From: Clostridiales bacterium
Lineage (GTDB): Bacteria > Bacillota > Clostridia > Oscillospirales > Acutalibacteraceae
DNA: 64,000 bases
Direction of reading: 5' to 3'
Assembly: GCA_012839345.1 (NCBI GenBank)
Contig: DUNN01000033.1
Coordinates: forward strand, 1-64,000
The translations under genes and the position numbers were made by a program. The notes beneath the pieces are model-generated. The model saw only the letters and a list, made by a program, of their open reading frames with translations, was not told the DNA's origin and did not search any database. Below are positions 6,804 to 34,671 of the stretch, one piece after another (positions within the stretch are counted from its first letter, which is position 1; the number at the start of each line of letters is the position of its first letter).

Positions 6804-8171
6804 TTATGTATTGAGTGAGGATACCCACCGCACGCGAAGAATCAGAATAATGGAAATTACGGCGGCCATGTAGTTGGAGAAAAGGTTTCCCCAGAAAACG
6901 GAATAGTATTGCAGCATTGGCTCGGTCATCAAAATAAAAATGAAACGAAGCAGCCAGATGCGCAGCAGACCGAGAATCATGGGTACAACGGTTTTCCCCA
7001 GGCCGATAAATGCTCCCTGAACCGCCATGCACACACCAAAGCCGACAACCGAATACGTGTAGATATGCAGGGCGTTGTTTGCAACCGATAAAACGTCCGG
7101 CTGATGGGTAAACAGTACAGTGAGGTAGGGGGAAAGCGGTACCACAATGGCAATGACCGCGACCGCCGTGATGGCGCTGGCAAGACAGCCCACCAAACAG
7201 GAGCGCTTGGCCTTTTCCGGCTGATTGGCGCCGATGTTCAGGCTGACCATGGTGGTAACGGCGGAGCCGAAGGAGGATGGCAGGTTAAAACAAACTGCGG
7301 TAATGTTACCTGCGATTCCCTGTCCGTTTAAAATGACCGGTCCGTATTTCTGCGTTTCATGGTTAATTAAAAAGAAACCGAAATTCAGCAGCAGGCTGGT
7401 GATCATGGCGGGAATTCCTACGCGGATCATCTGCGCAATCAGGCCCCTGTCATAGCGGAAGCCCTTCAAGGTCAGCTGGTCTTCACTTTTCGCCACGAAC
7501 AATTCGTAGAACATCCAGATGCAGATTAACACGTTGGCGCACAGGGAAGAAAGCACGCACCCCACAACTTCTAAACGCAGCCATACGATGAACACAAAGT
7601 TGAAAATGATTTTCAGAAACAGCATCAGCACCATTCGAATGAACGAGGCTTCCGGTTTGCCGGTCGCGTTTTTGATGGCGTTGTAAATGCTTTCCATAAA
7701 CGAAAAGGGAAGTACGGTTGCATATAAACTAATATAAAGAAACACATTGTGCGAAATCTGCGCATCCACGCTGTGAGAAATTGGCATTGCAAGCAGCGCA
7801 AGCAGCGGCGCAAAACAGAATCCCATGGTAAAGGCGAATACTACCACCTGTGTGGAAATCCGTTTCACCTTTATCAGGTCGCCTTGCCCATTGGCCTGCC
7901 CAATAATCGCCATGGCGGCCACGCTCAATCCCTGCGCTAGGGCGGTCATCATGTTTACAATTGGTTCGCTGTAAGTAACGGCGCTGGCCACAAGCGTTCC
8001 TGCTGAGTTATTGATAAAAAGACCGTCCGACAGCGGCATTAGGGACTGAATTACGCTCATCATCAAAGTCGGAACGGACAACAGAATGAGTGTTTTTAGA
8101 ATACTGCTGTGTAAAATTAAATCACGTCGCTGTTCTGTGCTTTGGTGTAAAAAATTAAGTTTCACTGGCAA
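6804..8171 (-). CDS. MATE-family multidrug/cation efflux protein
   Basis: This is a 455-residue membrane protein with about 12 hydrophobic segments in two related halves. The first half opens with the MATE pattern of small and polar residues (SLMPLSDGLFINN, then AQGLSVAAMAIIGQANGQGD). It probably exports organic cations or drugs against Na+ or H+. The start used is TTG at 8171; a GTG two codons later is equally possible, since neither has a strong binding site. The gene is alone between a bidirectional terminator and its own promoter. The substrate is unknown. Confidence 0.85.
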   Translation of the reverse strand: MPVKLNFLHQSTEQRRDLILHSSILKTLILLSVPTLMMSVIQSLMPLSDGLFINNSAGTLVASAVTYSEPIVNMMTALAQGLSVAAMAIIGQANGQGDLIKVKRISTQVVVFAFTMGFCFAPLLALLAMPISHSVDAQISHNVFLYISLYATVLPFSFMESIYNAIKNATGKPEASFIRMVLMLFLKIIFNFVFIVWLRLEVVGCVLSSLCANVLICIWMFYELFVAKSEDQLTLKGFRYDRGLIAQMIRVGIPAMITSLLLNFGFFLINHETQKYGPVILNGQGIAGNITAVCFNLPSSFGSAVTTMVSLNIGANQPEKAKRSCLVGCLASAITAVAVIAIVVPLSPYLTVLFTHQPDVLSVANNALHIYTYSVVGFGVCMAVQGAFIGLGKTVVPMILGLLRIWLLRFIFILMTEPMLQYYSVFWGNLFSNYMAAVISIILILRVRWVSSLNT

Positions 8172-8196
8172 CCCGCTTTCTATCTCATGAAACTAT

Positions 8197-8225
8197 AATA
8201 TAACATGATTCTGTATAATTTGCAA
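8197..8225 (-). promoter_or_regulatory. Promoter of the MATE gene
   Basis: Read on the minus strand, TTGCAA (8225-8220), 17 bases and TATATT (8202-8197) precede the MATE start by about 25 bases. The stretch 8226-8394 up to the next promoter holds nothing I recognise. Confidence 0.6.
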
Positions 8226-8394
8226 TCTTAAGAAGCTGGTGTCCCATGAGAATATTGAGCGGAATTTTTCTTGGAATTTGTCGTTTTTTCCCATTCTCGG
8301 CGAATCAGAATACAAGGTGGATTTAGATAAAAAAATAGTAGGAAACTGAAACAGATATATTTTTAAAAAACGATAATTATTTGCATTTTTACGC

Positions 8395-8423
8395 TTGAAA
8401 AAACCATACTGATTTCGTATACT
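8395..8423 (+). promoter_or_regulatory. Promoter of gpmA
   Basis: TTGAAA (8395-8400), a 17-base spacer and TATACT (8418-8423) give a near-consensus vegetative promoter about 80 bases before gpmA. Confidence 0.75.
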
Positions 8424-8501
8424 ATAGCCAGAACAAAGAACCGAACCACATCATCGTATTTCTGCAAATTTGGAAAATACGAAAAAATAAAGGAGGCAAG
8501 T

Positions 8502-9263
8502 ATGATGAAGCTAGTATTAATCCGGCATGGGGAAAGCGAATGGAATCGGGAAAATCTGTTTACCGGCTGGACGGATGTTGACCTTTCGGAAACGGGCCGG
8601 GAGGAAGCGAAAAACGCCGGCCTTTTGTTGAAAGAAGGCGGCTATGATTTTGATGTGTGTTACACCTCCTATTTGAAGCGCGCCATCCATACGCTGAACC
8701 TGGTTTTGCAGCAGCTTGACCGCGAATGGCTCCCGGTTGTGAAGACATGGAAGCTGAACGAACGCCACTACGGGGCATTGCAGGGCCTGAACAAGGCGGA
8801 AACCGCGCAGAAATACGGGGAAGAACAGGTGAAAATCTGGCGCCGGTCGTTTGACGTGCGTCCCCCCGAACTGGAGCAGGATGACGCGCGCAGCCCCCGC
8901 ACGCAGGAGCAGTATCGAATGGAAAACCCGGCGGAGCTTCCGCTCTGTGAAAGCCTGAAGGATACGATTGACCGTGTCATTCCCTACTTTGAATCCGTCA
9001 TTAAAAAAGACATGCAGAATGGCCGAAGGGTGCTGATTGCCGCACATGGCAATTCCCTCCGTGCGTTGGTTCAATATTTTGACCATCTTTCTCCGCAGGA
9101 GATTATGGAAGTCAACATTCCAACCGGAGTTCCGCTTGTGTATGAATTTGATGAAGCGTTTCGGCCAATCAAGCACTACTATCTCGGCGACCCCAAGCTG
9201 ATTGAGGCAAAAATGCAAAAGGTTGCCAACCAGGGGAAAGCCATCAGCAAACCGATTGGATGA
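8502..9263 (+). CDS. gpmA: 2,3-bisphosphoglycerate-dependent phosphoglycerate mutase
   Basis: This enzyme interconverts 3- and 2-phosphoglycerate in glycolysis through a phosphohistidine. The 253-residue length is typical of GpmA. The phospho-acceptor motif [10 protein letters not shown] is at residues 6-15. The catalytic Glu lies in [10 protein letters not shown] near 87, and the second His in [10 protein letters not shown] near 185. Two adjacent ATGs (8502, 8505) follow AAAGGAGG; the second has slightly better spacing but both give the same enzyme. It is monocistronic, flanked by its own promoter and by two hairpins downstream. Confidence 0.95.
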
Positions 9264-20684: not shown

Positions 20685-20836
20685 AGATTTTTAACCCCAC
20701 CAGTTATGCGTGGTAGGAAACTTAACTGCGATATAGCTTTCTTAATATTATATTAATTAAAGAAATAAATACTTCATTCTATAATTGCTTTGAAAGATAA
20801 TGATTATAAAACGATATGAAACCAGTTAGATAACAA

Positions 20837-21592
20837 AGTGATATAATTATAATACTTTACTATGATGATACGATCGACTATGTGATCGTACATAACAACA
20901 ACACAAACAATCTACTGCCGCTGAATATTGTTCTAAGCGATGACGGACTCTATTACGGCACATTCACAACCACATCGTTTTCCAGGTTTGCCGTAGCAAA
21001 CAAAAAGGCGCTGAGTACAAGCGGTAACAGTGGCAGAAGTGGCAGAAGTAAACATTCTTCCTCTGTGTCTTCCGCTGAAACAGTTGCTTCATCGACCTTT
21101 GTCAGCGATACAACAAACGATTTCAGCGTAAACGGTACTTACCAGTTTAAGATTACAAGCACAAACAGTGCTGCTCCGGTCCTTGTAGCCGGAACACCGG
21201 GTGTATTTGATGTTCAACTTGTCAATTCGGCAGGCAACAATTACTTTATTAAATTGATCGCTATCGGTAGTCCGGGCGAGGAAAGCGAAATTTATGTGAA
21301 TGGCATGAAGCTCTTAGTGGCAACGGTAGGCGCAACAGCGGTAACTTCCGACATTAAGAGCGACACTACAGGATCTTTTCAGGTTAAGGCTGGCAAGGCC
21401 TATACCTTTAAGATCACGGCGAACTTAAAACCGGTCTTCATGGCGGGAACACCTTCCGCATTTAAGGTTCAATTTGTAAAAGCCATTGGCAAGGACTACT
21501 TCTATCAGGTAACGGCAGCCGGCAAGATAGGCACGGGCTCCGGATTCTATGTGAATTCCAAAAGAGTTGCAGCAGCTACCATAACAAAATGA
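20837..21592 (+). pseudogene. 5'-truncated surface protein with two repeat domains
   Basis: The frame is open from 20834 and still reads like a surface protein before the first possible start (YYDDTIDYVIVHNN), but no ATG or signal peptide is present. A GTG at 20882 could give 236 residues but has no clear binding site. Then come a Ser/Gly linker (about residues 44-70 of that reading) and two repeats of about 75 residues. Each opens with SDTT, followed a few residues later by a YQFKIT- or YTFKIT-type strand. The same repeat type ends the GH25 lysozyme at 33 kb. I read it as the C-terminal remnant of a secreted cell-wall protein. Confidence 0.65.
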
Positions 21593-21938: not shown

Positions 21939-22015
21939 TGGTGGACGTTATAGGACTCGAACCTATGACCTTTCGCACGTCAAGCGAACGCTCTAGCCAG
22001 CTGAGCTAAACGTCC
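21939..22015 (-). tRNA. tRNA-Val (anticodon GAC), CCA encoded
   Basis: Read on the minus strand, the sequence folds as a full cloverleaf. The 7-bp acceptor GGACGTT/AACGTCC is followed by discriminator A and a genome-encoded CCA. The D arm is GCTC...GAGC. The anticodon stem TTCGC/GCGAA encloses the loop TTGACGT, giving anticodon GAC for valine. The T arm contains GGTTCGAGTCC. It has its own terminator. It borders a decayed stretch, but I see no att repeats. Confidence 0.95.
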
Positions 22016-32967: not shown

Positions 32968-34671
32968 TTGACTAAAAAAATAGTCTCCCTAATTCTCGTA
33001 TTGATTATAGCAGTATCATGTACATACACAACGGCTTTTGCCGACAGCGCTTCCTCAACCGATTTGACGCTGGATCAGAGCACCGCGATTGTCAAGGTAG
33101 GGGGCACCATTCAGGTAACGGCAACCTTGTACGGTTTTTCTCCGGCTCCGGTCAACTGGTCTATTGCAGACCCCAGCGTGGCAACGGTGAACGCAAACGG
33201 TGTTGTGACCGGAAAAAAGATCGGTCTTACTACGCTGACCGCAAGTGCGGACGGCTTAACTGCTACCTGTGCTATTTATGTAGGAATCAAGGGAATCGAT
33301 GTTTCTCATTATCAAAGTGACAGAGGCGCAATCGATTGGAACAGCGTAAAATCTTCGGGCGTTGATTTTGTTTTTGTCAAGGCGACCGAAGGGGTGAATT
33401 ATGTAGACCCAGGCTTTAAACAGAATGTTTCGGGGGCGATCGCCGCGGGACTTCACGTGGGCGCATACCATTTTCTGCGTGCAGGGGATGCGGTGCAGCA
33501 GGCAAAGGAATTTATTGCCGCAGTGAAACCGTATTCCGTAGATTATCCGCTGGCCTGCGACGTCGAAAAGGATGAACTGATCTCCATGGGCAAGGACAAG
33601 CTCACCGATATGGTCATTGCGTTCTGCGAAACCGTGCGTGCCGCCGGGTACCGTCCGATGATTTATCTGAATTTAAACTGGGCGAGGAACTATGTTGATA
33701 TGTCCCGCCTGAGCGATTATGAGCTCTGGTTCGCGCGCTACAACCATGAACCGGGCTATGACGGTGTGGATATCTGGCAGTACAGCAGCACCACTACGGT
33801 TCCTGGAATCAACGGCGCCGTGGATGGAAACTACGCGTTTGTCAATTACGCGAGCACCCTGCAGAGCGACACGGTGGCTACTTATACATTCGGAACAAAC
33901 AGCACCTATATTTATAAAATTACAACACGGCTGACGACGCCACCGAAAGCCTATTCCAGCAATCCAAATGCAGTCAGCGTAGCGTTTTACCAAAAAATTA
34001 GCGGCGGGTATCTCTATAAAATAACAAATGTGAATCAGGGGGTTGCGCAAATTACGACCACCGGTTCGGATGGCAGCTACACCAGCTTTACAGCGATTGG
34101 AAGGCTGAAAGGCGTAGTCAGCGATACGACCGCGCCGTTTACCATGAAGCCGGGCGCCACCTATCAAATGAAACTGACCCTGGTTGGCGGCGCAACCGCA
34201 ACGCCGTATGTTTCCACCGGAAACGGGCAAGTCCTTAAAGTGCTGTCCACTGTGAAGAGCGGGAACAGCTTTTATGTAAAAATCCAAGCGCTCAGCGCAG
34301 GCTGCACCAGTGTTTATACCACAATGCCGGGGCAGAGCGCAATCCGCCAGTGTATGGTAACGGTGGATGGCAGCAGCAGTACCAATTCGAACAGCGGACC
34401 TGCTGCGACCAGCGTTTCGTCCGATACCACCGATCCGTTCACGATGCAGAAAGACGGAACCTATCAGTTCAAGTTCACCTTGGTAGGCGGTACCAGCGGG
34501 ACACCGGTATTTTCTACAGGAAACGGTTCCGTACTGCAGGTTTCGTCGAGCGTGCGGTCCGGGAACAGCTTCTTCGTGAAAGTGAAGGGCGTTGGCAGCG
34601 GCTGCACCGGTGTTTACACCACGCTGCCGGGCCAGCAGGCGGTTCGTCAGTGCATTGTTACTGTCGCGTAA
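32968..34671 (+). CDS. Secreted GH25 lysozyme with Big_2 and three C-terminal repeats
   Basis: This is a cell-wall muramidase (N-acetylmuramidase), exported. With TTG 32968 (9 bases after GGAGGT) the signal peptide is clean: KK, a hydrophobic run, then TTAFADS. An upstream ATG at 32929 would add 13 charged residues and spoil it. Residues 30-112 form a bacterial Ig-like Big_2 domain (VNWSIADPSVATVN). Residues about 112-300 form the GH25 domain opening with GIDVSHYQSD, with the catalytic Asp/Glu pair in CDVEKDE near 198. Then come three repeats of about 80 residues; the last two open with SDTTAPF and SDTTDPF and end in RQCMVTV and RQCIVTV. They may bind the cell wall. Confidence 0.9.
   Translation: MTKKIVSLILVLIIAVSCTYTTAFADSASSTDLTLDQSTAIVKVGGTIQVTATLYGFSPAPVNWSIADPSVATVNANGVVTGKKIGLTTLTASADGLTATCAIYVGIKGIDVSHYQSDRGAIDWNSVKSSGVDFVFVKATEGVNYVDPGFKQNVSGAIAAGLHVGAYHFLRAGDAVQQAKEFIAAVKPYSVDYPLACDVEKDELISMGKDKLTDMVIAFCETVRAAGYRPMIYLNLNWARNYVDMSRLSDYELWFARYNHEPGYDGVDIWQYSSTTTVPGINGAVDGNYAFVNYASTLQSDTVATYTFGTNSTYIYKITTRLTTPPKAYSSNPNAVSVAFYQKISGGYLYKITNVNQGVAQITTTGSDGSYTSFTAIGRLKGVVSDTTAPFTMKPGATYQMKLTLVGGATATPYVSTGNGQVLKVLSTVKSGNSFYVKIQALSAGCTSVYTTMPGQSAIRQCMVTVDGSSSTNSNSGPAATSVSSDTTDPFTMQKDGTYQFKFTLVGGTSGTPVFSTGNGSVLQVSSSVRSGNSFFVKVKGVGSGCTGVYTTLPGQQAVRQCIVTVA

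Follow-up and report, generated by a model that had tools for sequence, protein, structure and literature searches.

Two proteins encoded in the window (the whole stretch of DNA analysed, 64,000 nucleotides) end in copies of an undescribed domain of about 80 residues, the SDTT domain, which is predicted to be Ig-like and which in our judgement is likely to be a non-covalent cell-wall-binding module, serving the host as a C-terminal anchor and used on phage lysins as well. The Ig-like fold itself is known; what is new is a lineage-specific domain that nearly always lies at the very end of its carriers.

The first of the two proteins is a GH25 lysozyme which, from its N-terminus, consists of a leader (recognised by eye), a Big_2 domain, the catalytic domain and three SDTT-type domains (R1–R3). 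The second is an open frame, apparently a gene truncated at its 5' end, with two more (R4 and R5; Table 1). Repeats in the window are 76–85 residues long, and the conserved positions of the family are S-D-T, Tyr15, Lys18, Pro27 and several glycines. A preliminary description of this DNA had placed two repeats in the remnant at 21.1–21.6 kb, and these are R4 and R5; it had also rightly seen repeats at the C-terminus of the lysozyme, but three copies are present there, so that its starting point at 34118 omits R1. BLAST against the fetched carriers gave no match for the 95 residues with which the truncated frame opens (window 20834–21100). Downstream of this frame, at 21942–22015, is a tRNA gene.

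Table 1. Features of the two window proteins and one further carrier (window positions unless a contig is given)
Feature	Position	Strand	Basis or remark
GH25 lysozyme gene, 580 aa	32929..34671	+	Pfam GH25 E 9.8e-44, Big_2 E 4.3e-9
N-terminal Big_2 Ig-like domain of lysozyme (residues 45-107)	33058..33249	+	Pfam
GH25 catalytic domain of lysozyme (residues 123-294)	33295..33810	+	Pfam
SDTT-type domain R1, diverged subtype, lysozyme	33865..34113	+	profile search
SDTT-type domain R2, lysozyme	34120..34368	+	profile search
SDTT-type domain R3, lysozyme, last codons before stop	34420..34668	+	profile search; AlphaFold2 pLDDT 93.7
Open frame, apparently 5'-truncated gene, 252 residues, without leader, two C-terminal SDTT-type domains	20834..21592	+	
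SDTT-type domain R4, truncated frame	21104..21331	+	profile search
SDTT-type domain R5, truncated frame	21359..21589	+	profile search; AlphaFold2 pLDDT 96.2
Repeat-only protein L050	genome G000, C3:80241-81263		relatives L060, L066, L070, L079, L087, L091, L100, L109

That one repeat is common to the lysozyme and the truncated protein, as had been proposed, is borne out by profiles of either gene, each of which finds the repeats of the other. This cross-gene arrangement, with 1841 targets including 1000 shuffled repeats, avoids circularity. The R1–R3 profile recovered R4 (domain E 8e-9) and R5 (8e-8), the best shuffled repeat reaching 0.0014, and the R4–R5 profile recovered R3 (1.5e-7), R2 (1e-4) and R1 (0.01; best shuffle 0.097). 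With R2–R3 only, R4 (6e-7) and R5 (0.015) were found (best shuffle 0.044), and R1 had no significant match to this profile (E 3.9 in 1841 targets). Of the five copies in the window R1 is the weakest; with an iterated profile built on 187 domains it reaches 66 bits, against 72–81 bits for the counterparts of R1 in other species. By these profile scores it is a third, diverged copy in the lysozyme.

AlphaFold2 models of R3 and R5 each show a seven-strand sandwich. Each model was compared with the PDB, rather than the two being superposed on one another. The best match of R3 was domain 5 of the S-layer protein SbsC (Z 10.8, rmsd 2.1 over 79 residues), with the Big_2 part of 7r3t at Z 9.6 (rmsd 1.9 over 73), while R5 came closest to part of a virion protein of phage SU10 (Z 10.1, rmsd 1.8 over 71), followed by a nucleoporin stretch (Z 9.2) and again SbsC domain 5 (Z 9.1, rmsd 2.2 over 74). 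Invasin-type domains are among the matches of both models and a Big_2 domain among those of R3. The predicted fold of the SDTT domain is thus Ig-like, a common fold that does not by itself show function. A fold search of BFVD with the R5 model gave nothing at E<=0.001, the best match being a phage protein named BIG2 (4.1e-3). The preliminary description had allowed for two outcomes that would separate the repeats or assign them to a known family. Instead of unrelated folds, both models are Ig-like and match the same SbsC domain, and instead of a known Pfam domain, no Pfam or NCBIfam model scores above its own cut-off on the repeats.

Scans of the repeats with Pfam, NCBIfam and PHROGs returned sub-threshold or unrelated matches only, and a sequence search of the PDB nothing credible. 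On the two window proteins, Big_2 (PF02368) matches the lysozyme N-terminus (residues 45–107) and not the repeats, and it is absent from the 25 of 32 Pfam families listed for 41 member domains. Comparison of the SDTT family with Big_2 by hhalign gave probabilities of 10.6% and 6.0%; the R1 subtype reached 42%, a weak profile similarity. The structural matches do not single out one nearest Ig-like family, and these sequence comparisons do not establish a descent from Big_2. Familiar wall-binding repeats were also sought: LysM, SLH, CWB2 and choline-binding repeats did not appear on the two window proteins in Pfam at E up to 10, and Choline_bind_1 matched two of the 41 member domains (best E 0.088), which we take as chance. 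A PA14 match on the truncated remnant (22.8 bits, cut-off 24) was rejected, as the predicted fold is Ig-like. No description of the SDTT domain was found in the openly licensed PMC literature, as far as titles and the starts of abstracts go.

Searching the window genome with a profile of its five window copies gave 18 matches at E<=1, of which 17 are at E<=1e-3 (16 in a search of 60 genomes), spread over ten proteins or fragments. In the 60-genome search the domain was present in the window genome and in nine of the ten other Caproiciproducens genomes, these nine holding 10–29 copies each, and in none of 49 genomes of other genera. A range limited to the genus was nevertheless dropped, since with a 41-domain profile 27 of 300 genomes of the family Acutalibacteraceae, in which NCBI places Caproiciproducens, and 11 of its 135 genera carry the domain. 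Of 345 genomes at the level of the order five match, including one weak and partial match outside the family; of 391 at the level of the class five match, including two (E 1e-4) outside it. Both totals count genomes of the family along with others. As sampled, the domain thus appears essentially restricted to one family. Caproiciproducens carriers sampled include C. faecalis, C. galactitolivorans and Amazonia massiliensis. Copy number is far higher in three genomes of the Anaeromassilibacillus group, with 104 in Anaeromassilibacillus senegalensis and 85 and 58 in the other two, the close relatives Clostridium sp. D33t1 and Clostridia bacterium UC5.1-1E11; the 12 carriers fetched from this group have one copy per protein.

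The position of the domain is nearly constant. In all 72 Caproiciproducens carriers (from regions around the matches listed in nine genomes; G008 contributed a single region and G009 none) the last copy ends 1–12 residues before a verified stop, in 59 of them at one residue, and each protein has 1–8 copies, 187 in all. Well-sampled Caproiciproducens genomes have at least 7–12 proteins ending in the domain, among the matches listed. It is also terminal in 75 of 76 proteins with a stop in view at loci of named organisms and in 20 of 22 carriers from other genera, whose genomes partly overlap the former set. Exceptions are a locus at about 7431–8984 of an uncultured Clostridia MAG (L208), where two SDTT domains are followed by 240 residues with choline-binding repeats and a transglutaminase core, and two proteins from other genera with 199 (G277_L153) and 184 residues (G292_L152) after the domain. 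As a control, Big_2 domains of Caproiciproducens (30 loci of 42 matches listed) lie within 12 residues of the stop in one case out of 30; as 16 of them sit in proteins that end in an SDTT domain, one of the remaining 14 is the fairer figure.

The carriers are of many kinds. An earlier suggestion of one uncharacterised wall-attached or wall-binding domain used in several secreted proteins of this organism agrees with its occurrence on lysozymes, phage lysins and other secreted proteins. The window genome encodes another eight proteins or fragments that carry it. With names partly given by eye, these are a further GH25 lysozyme, two enzymes resembling GH3 and beta-lactamase, a surface-type protein of 940 aa, a six-copy repeat-only protein and, at contig edges, two lysin fragments (contig starts) and a long GH31-like frame (contig end). 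Pfam scans of 32 carriers from three genomes gave GH25 (7), Big_2 (7), FIVAR (4) and GH3 (3), with beta-lactamase, GH38, GH31 and Amidase_2 among the single cases. In the Anaeromassilibacillus group, 26 carriers were scanned, a subset comprising proteins of 1000 aa or more; FIVAR was found in 23, F5/8-type domains in 10, GH2 in 5, GH3 in 4, and GH38, GH97 and GH127 in 2 each.

A simple rule assigns a leader to 60 of the 72 Caproiciproducens carriers. The rule requires an ATG and so misses the window lysozyme and truncated ORFs. Of the 12 negative cases, two are leaderless lysins, three have a leader by eye and no ATG at the start (the window lysozyme, G001_L096 and G005_L092), and in the remaining seven the 5' end is cut, masked or uncertain. 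Proteins of about 920–1160 aa that end in two or three copies resemble surface-layer proteins, judged by size, leader and paralogy only. Exported proteins made up of six to eight tandem copies and little else were seen in eight of the nine Caproiciproducens genomes with fetched carriers.

The SDTT domain also occurs on phage and prophage lysins. A leaderless GH25 protein of Amazonia massiliensis (286 aa) ends in the domain, and its relatives in seven IMG/VR contigs all have it at their C-terminus; one of these (L235) is identical to the query, and the two most likely represent the same prophage. Taken together, five scans gave nine IMG/VR contigs with a lysin-sized ORF and a C-terminal domain, seven of them GH25, one M15/VanY (L247) and one (L253) without a Pfam match; the last lies downstream of a baseplate gene and shows only a weak PHROG match to a minor tail protein. 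The lysins of L238 and L239 are identical, so that the nine contigs represent eight distinct proteins. In a prophage-like region of C. faecalis (G003) an Amidase_2 protein ends in the domain; the viral scan found no relative of this amidase. Hence, a Pfam catalytic domain precedes the SDTT domain in eight of nine viral contigs (L239 by its identity with L238) and in one prophage-like region, and the catalytic domains are unrelated: GH25, Amidase_2 and Peptidase_M15/VanY. Tape-measure, tail-fibre or baseplate genes lie upstream in seven of eight loci (L235, L236, L237, L241, L244, L247 and L253); at the eighth, L238, two neighbours were tested, of which one had no match and the other is a DNA methyltransferase.

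Endolysins commonly join a catalytic domain to a wall-binding domain. They are reported to be host-adapted and variable in these domains (PMC9371310). A shared C-terminus behind three unrelated, Pfam-defined catalytic domains is the pattern expected of a wall-binding module, and we regard this use in phage lysins as the strongest clue to a binding of the wall by the SDTT domain. In named phages, the lysin of L237 has 184 matching records, none of which covers 80% of it, and none of the best 25 of these 184 extends beyond residue 219 of 284, the domain occupying residues 209–283; a search of 50,697 phage records gave no match to the pair of C-terminal domains in L241. The GH25 endolysin profile phrog_291 matches the window at 33244–34272, past the catalytic domain and into R1–R2 (residues 106–448 of the lysozyme), which may reflect a related C-terminus in some phages of that group. 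In two further IMG/VR contigs labelled as viral (L254 and L255), which are perhaps host DNA, the domain is found on a large protein that reads as amylase-like and on a C-terminal fragment.

On this architecture, we strongly infer that the domain binds the wall. In Caproiciproducens and the Anaeromassilibacillus group, one to eight terminal copies would keep exported hydrolases, large glycosidases and repeat-only proteins attached to the wall. Phages of these bacteria would use the module in the same C-terminal place on peptidoglycan hydrolases of unrelated types, which would thereby be bound to the wall of the host during lysis. Attachment would be non-covalent, and the ligand a wall component characteristic of the family. 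This may be peptidoglycan or, more likely given the narrow taxonomic range, a secondary wall polymer; the same range suggests a ligand exclusive to Acutalibacteraceae.

The domain is probably a main C-terminal surface anchor in Caproiciproducens and in the Anaeromassilibacillus group. Classical surface anchors are scarce in Caproiciproducens: among its 11 genomes CWB2 was found in none, SLH in two and LPXTG in two with one match each, while sortases occur in 10. Anchoring of the carriers by LPXTG and sortase was considered and rejected, as they end in the SDTT domain itself and the 1–12 residues that follow are too few for an LPXTG signal. A more far-reaching version, to which we give about an even chance, is that this Ig-like family is the general C-terminal retention tag of a Gram-positive lineage and has largely replaced SLH, CWB2 and sortase anchoring. 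It would then serve up to about 100 proteins per cell, probably including surface-layer proteins, by binding a wall polymer found in this lineage only, and would have been captured by the phages of the lineage to aim their lysins.

Of the other explanations, a carbohydrate-binding module for external substrates such as plant, mucin or starch glycans, comparable to CBM37 and with the cell surface in a secondary role, would suit the large carriers of the Anaeromassilibacillus group, many of which (in the 26 scanned) are glycosidases with other sugar-binding domains; a substrate-binding role is conceivable there. CBM37 itself shows that a module unique to one lineage can occur on many of its secreted enzymes (PMC4300822). 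We nevertheless consider this explanation improbable, as the domain is also found on lysozymes, phage lysins and repeat-only proteins and the target of an endolysin is the wall and not an external glycan. Slightly less probable still is a passive Ig-like spacer or a protein–protein contact, for example in an S-layer lattice or a dimer, with no affinity for the wall. Big domains often act as spacers, and the structural matches include SbsC domain 5 and filamin Ig repeats. Spacers, however, lie between domains, whereas the SDTT domain is terminal in all 72 carriers examined (Big_2: the single terminal case in 30, or in 14 outside SDTT carriers), and a terminal spacer has no evident use in short phage lysins with one catalytic domain.

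The strict C-terminal position, the many different cargoes and the narrow taxonomic range are also reminiscent of an export or sorting tag which, as in type IX secretion, is recognised by a machine dedicated to secretion or attachment. This we consider very improbable, as most carriers have a leader of their own by the simple rule (60 of 72), leaderless lysin-type proteins also bear the domain, and the tail behind it is too short for an LPXTG signal although sortases are encoded in nearly all of the genomes (10 of 11).

Wall binding by the SDTT domain, the reading that we prefer, can be placed beside several known systems. Like Big_2 (PF02368) and SbsC domain 5, the domain is an Ig-like sandwich of about 80 residues by prediction, but unlike Big_2 its repeats have no Pfam match, have conserved positions of their own and are terminal rather than internal. 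With the wall-binding domains of phage endolysins (LysM, choline-binding and Cpl-7 repeats) it shares a place C-terminal to unrelated peptidoglycan hydrolases and an occurrence in phage lysis regions and on host lysozymes, and like them it may be limited to one host lineage; it differs from them in having no family model and in being terminal on many host proteins too. LysM and choline-binding repeats have a fold different from that predicted for the SDTT domain. SLH (PF00395) and CWB2 (PF04122) are repeated modules that hold many different proteins on the Gram-positive wall, and their folds likewise differ; unlike the SDTT domain, present in 10 of the 11 Caproiciproducens genomes, they are rare there, as counted above.

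A purely functional parallel is CBM37 of Ruminococcus albus, which is likewise limited to a lineage and present on many secreted enzymes. According to the title of Ezer 2008, which PMC4300822 cites, CBM37 attaches enzymes to the cell surface. PMC4300822 places it on fibrolytic and some other secreted proteins, whereas the SDTT domain is also found on phage lysins and lysozymes. The mucinolysome of Limousia, a relative once filed as Anaeromassilibacillus or Acutalibacteraceae, is described in PMC12997984 as consisting of cohesin–dockerin complexes with an LPxTG scaffoldin, many secreted glycosidases being predicted to be held at the surface. There, dockerin–cohesin pairs and a sortase-anchored scaffoldin take the place of the terminal Ig-like domain seen here.

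If the SDTT domain does bind the wall, this would explain the retention of many exported proteins at the cell surface, and it would provide a lineage-specific targeting module and point to an unrecognised wall ligand. Three genomes of the Anaeromassilibacillus group have 58–104 copies each, yet no family model was found by which they would be annotated. Its presence on phage lysins makes the idea of wall binding directly testable.

One of the 11 Caproiciproducens genomes, G006, lacks an SDTT match and offers a comparison at a GH25 junction. One of its two GH25 proteins has a C-terminal LysM (E 2.9e-15). The two fragments at contig edges of the window genome are 38–39% identical to this protein (BLAST) up to the same junction, beyond which it has LysM and they have an SDTT domain. 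Pfam finds no match on the two fragments, their GH25 origin being based on BLAST to the G006 protein, and the alignment continues weakly past the junction; a swap between LysM and the SDTT domain at this point is for both reasons suggestive only. The second GH25 protein of G006 has a sub-threshold match to a choline-binding repeat at its N-terminus (24.7 bits, cut-off 27).
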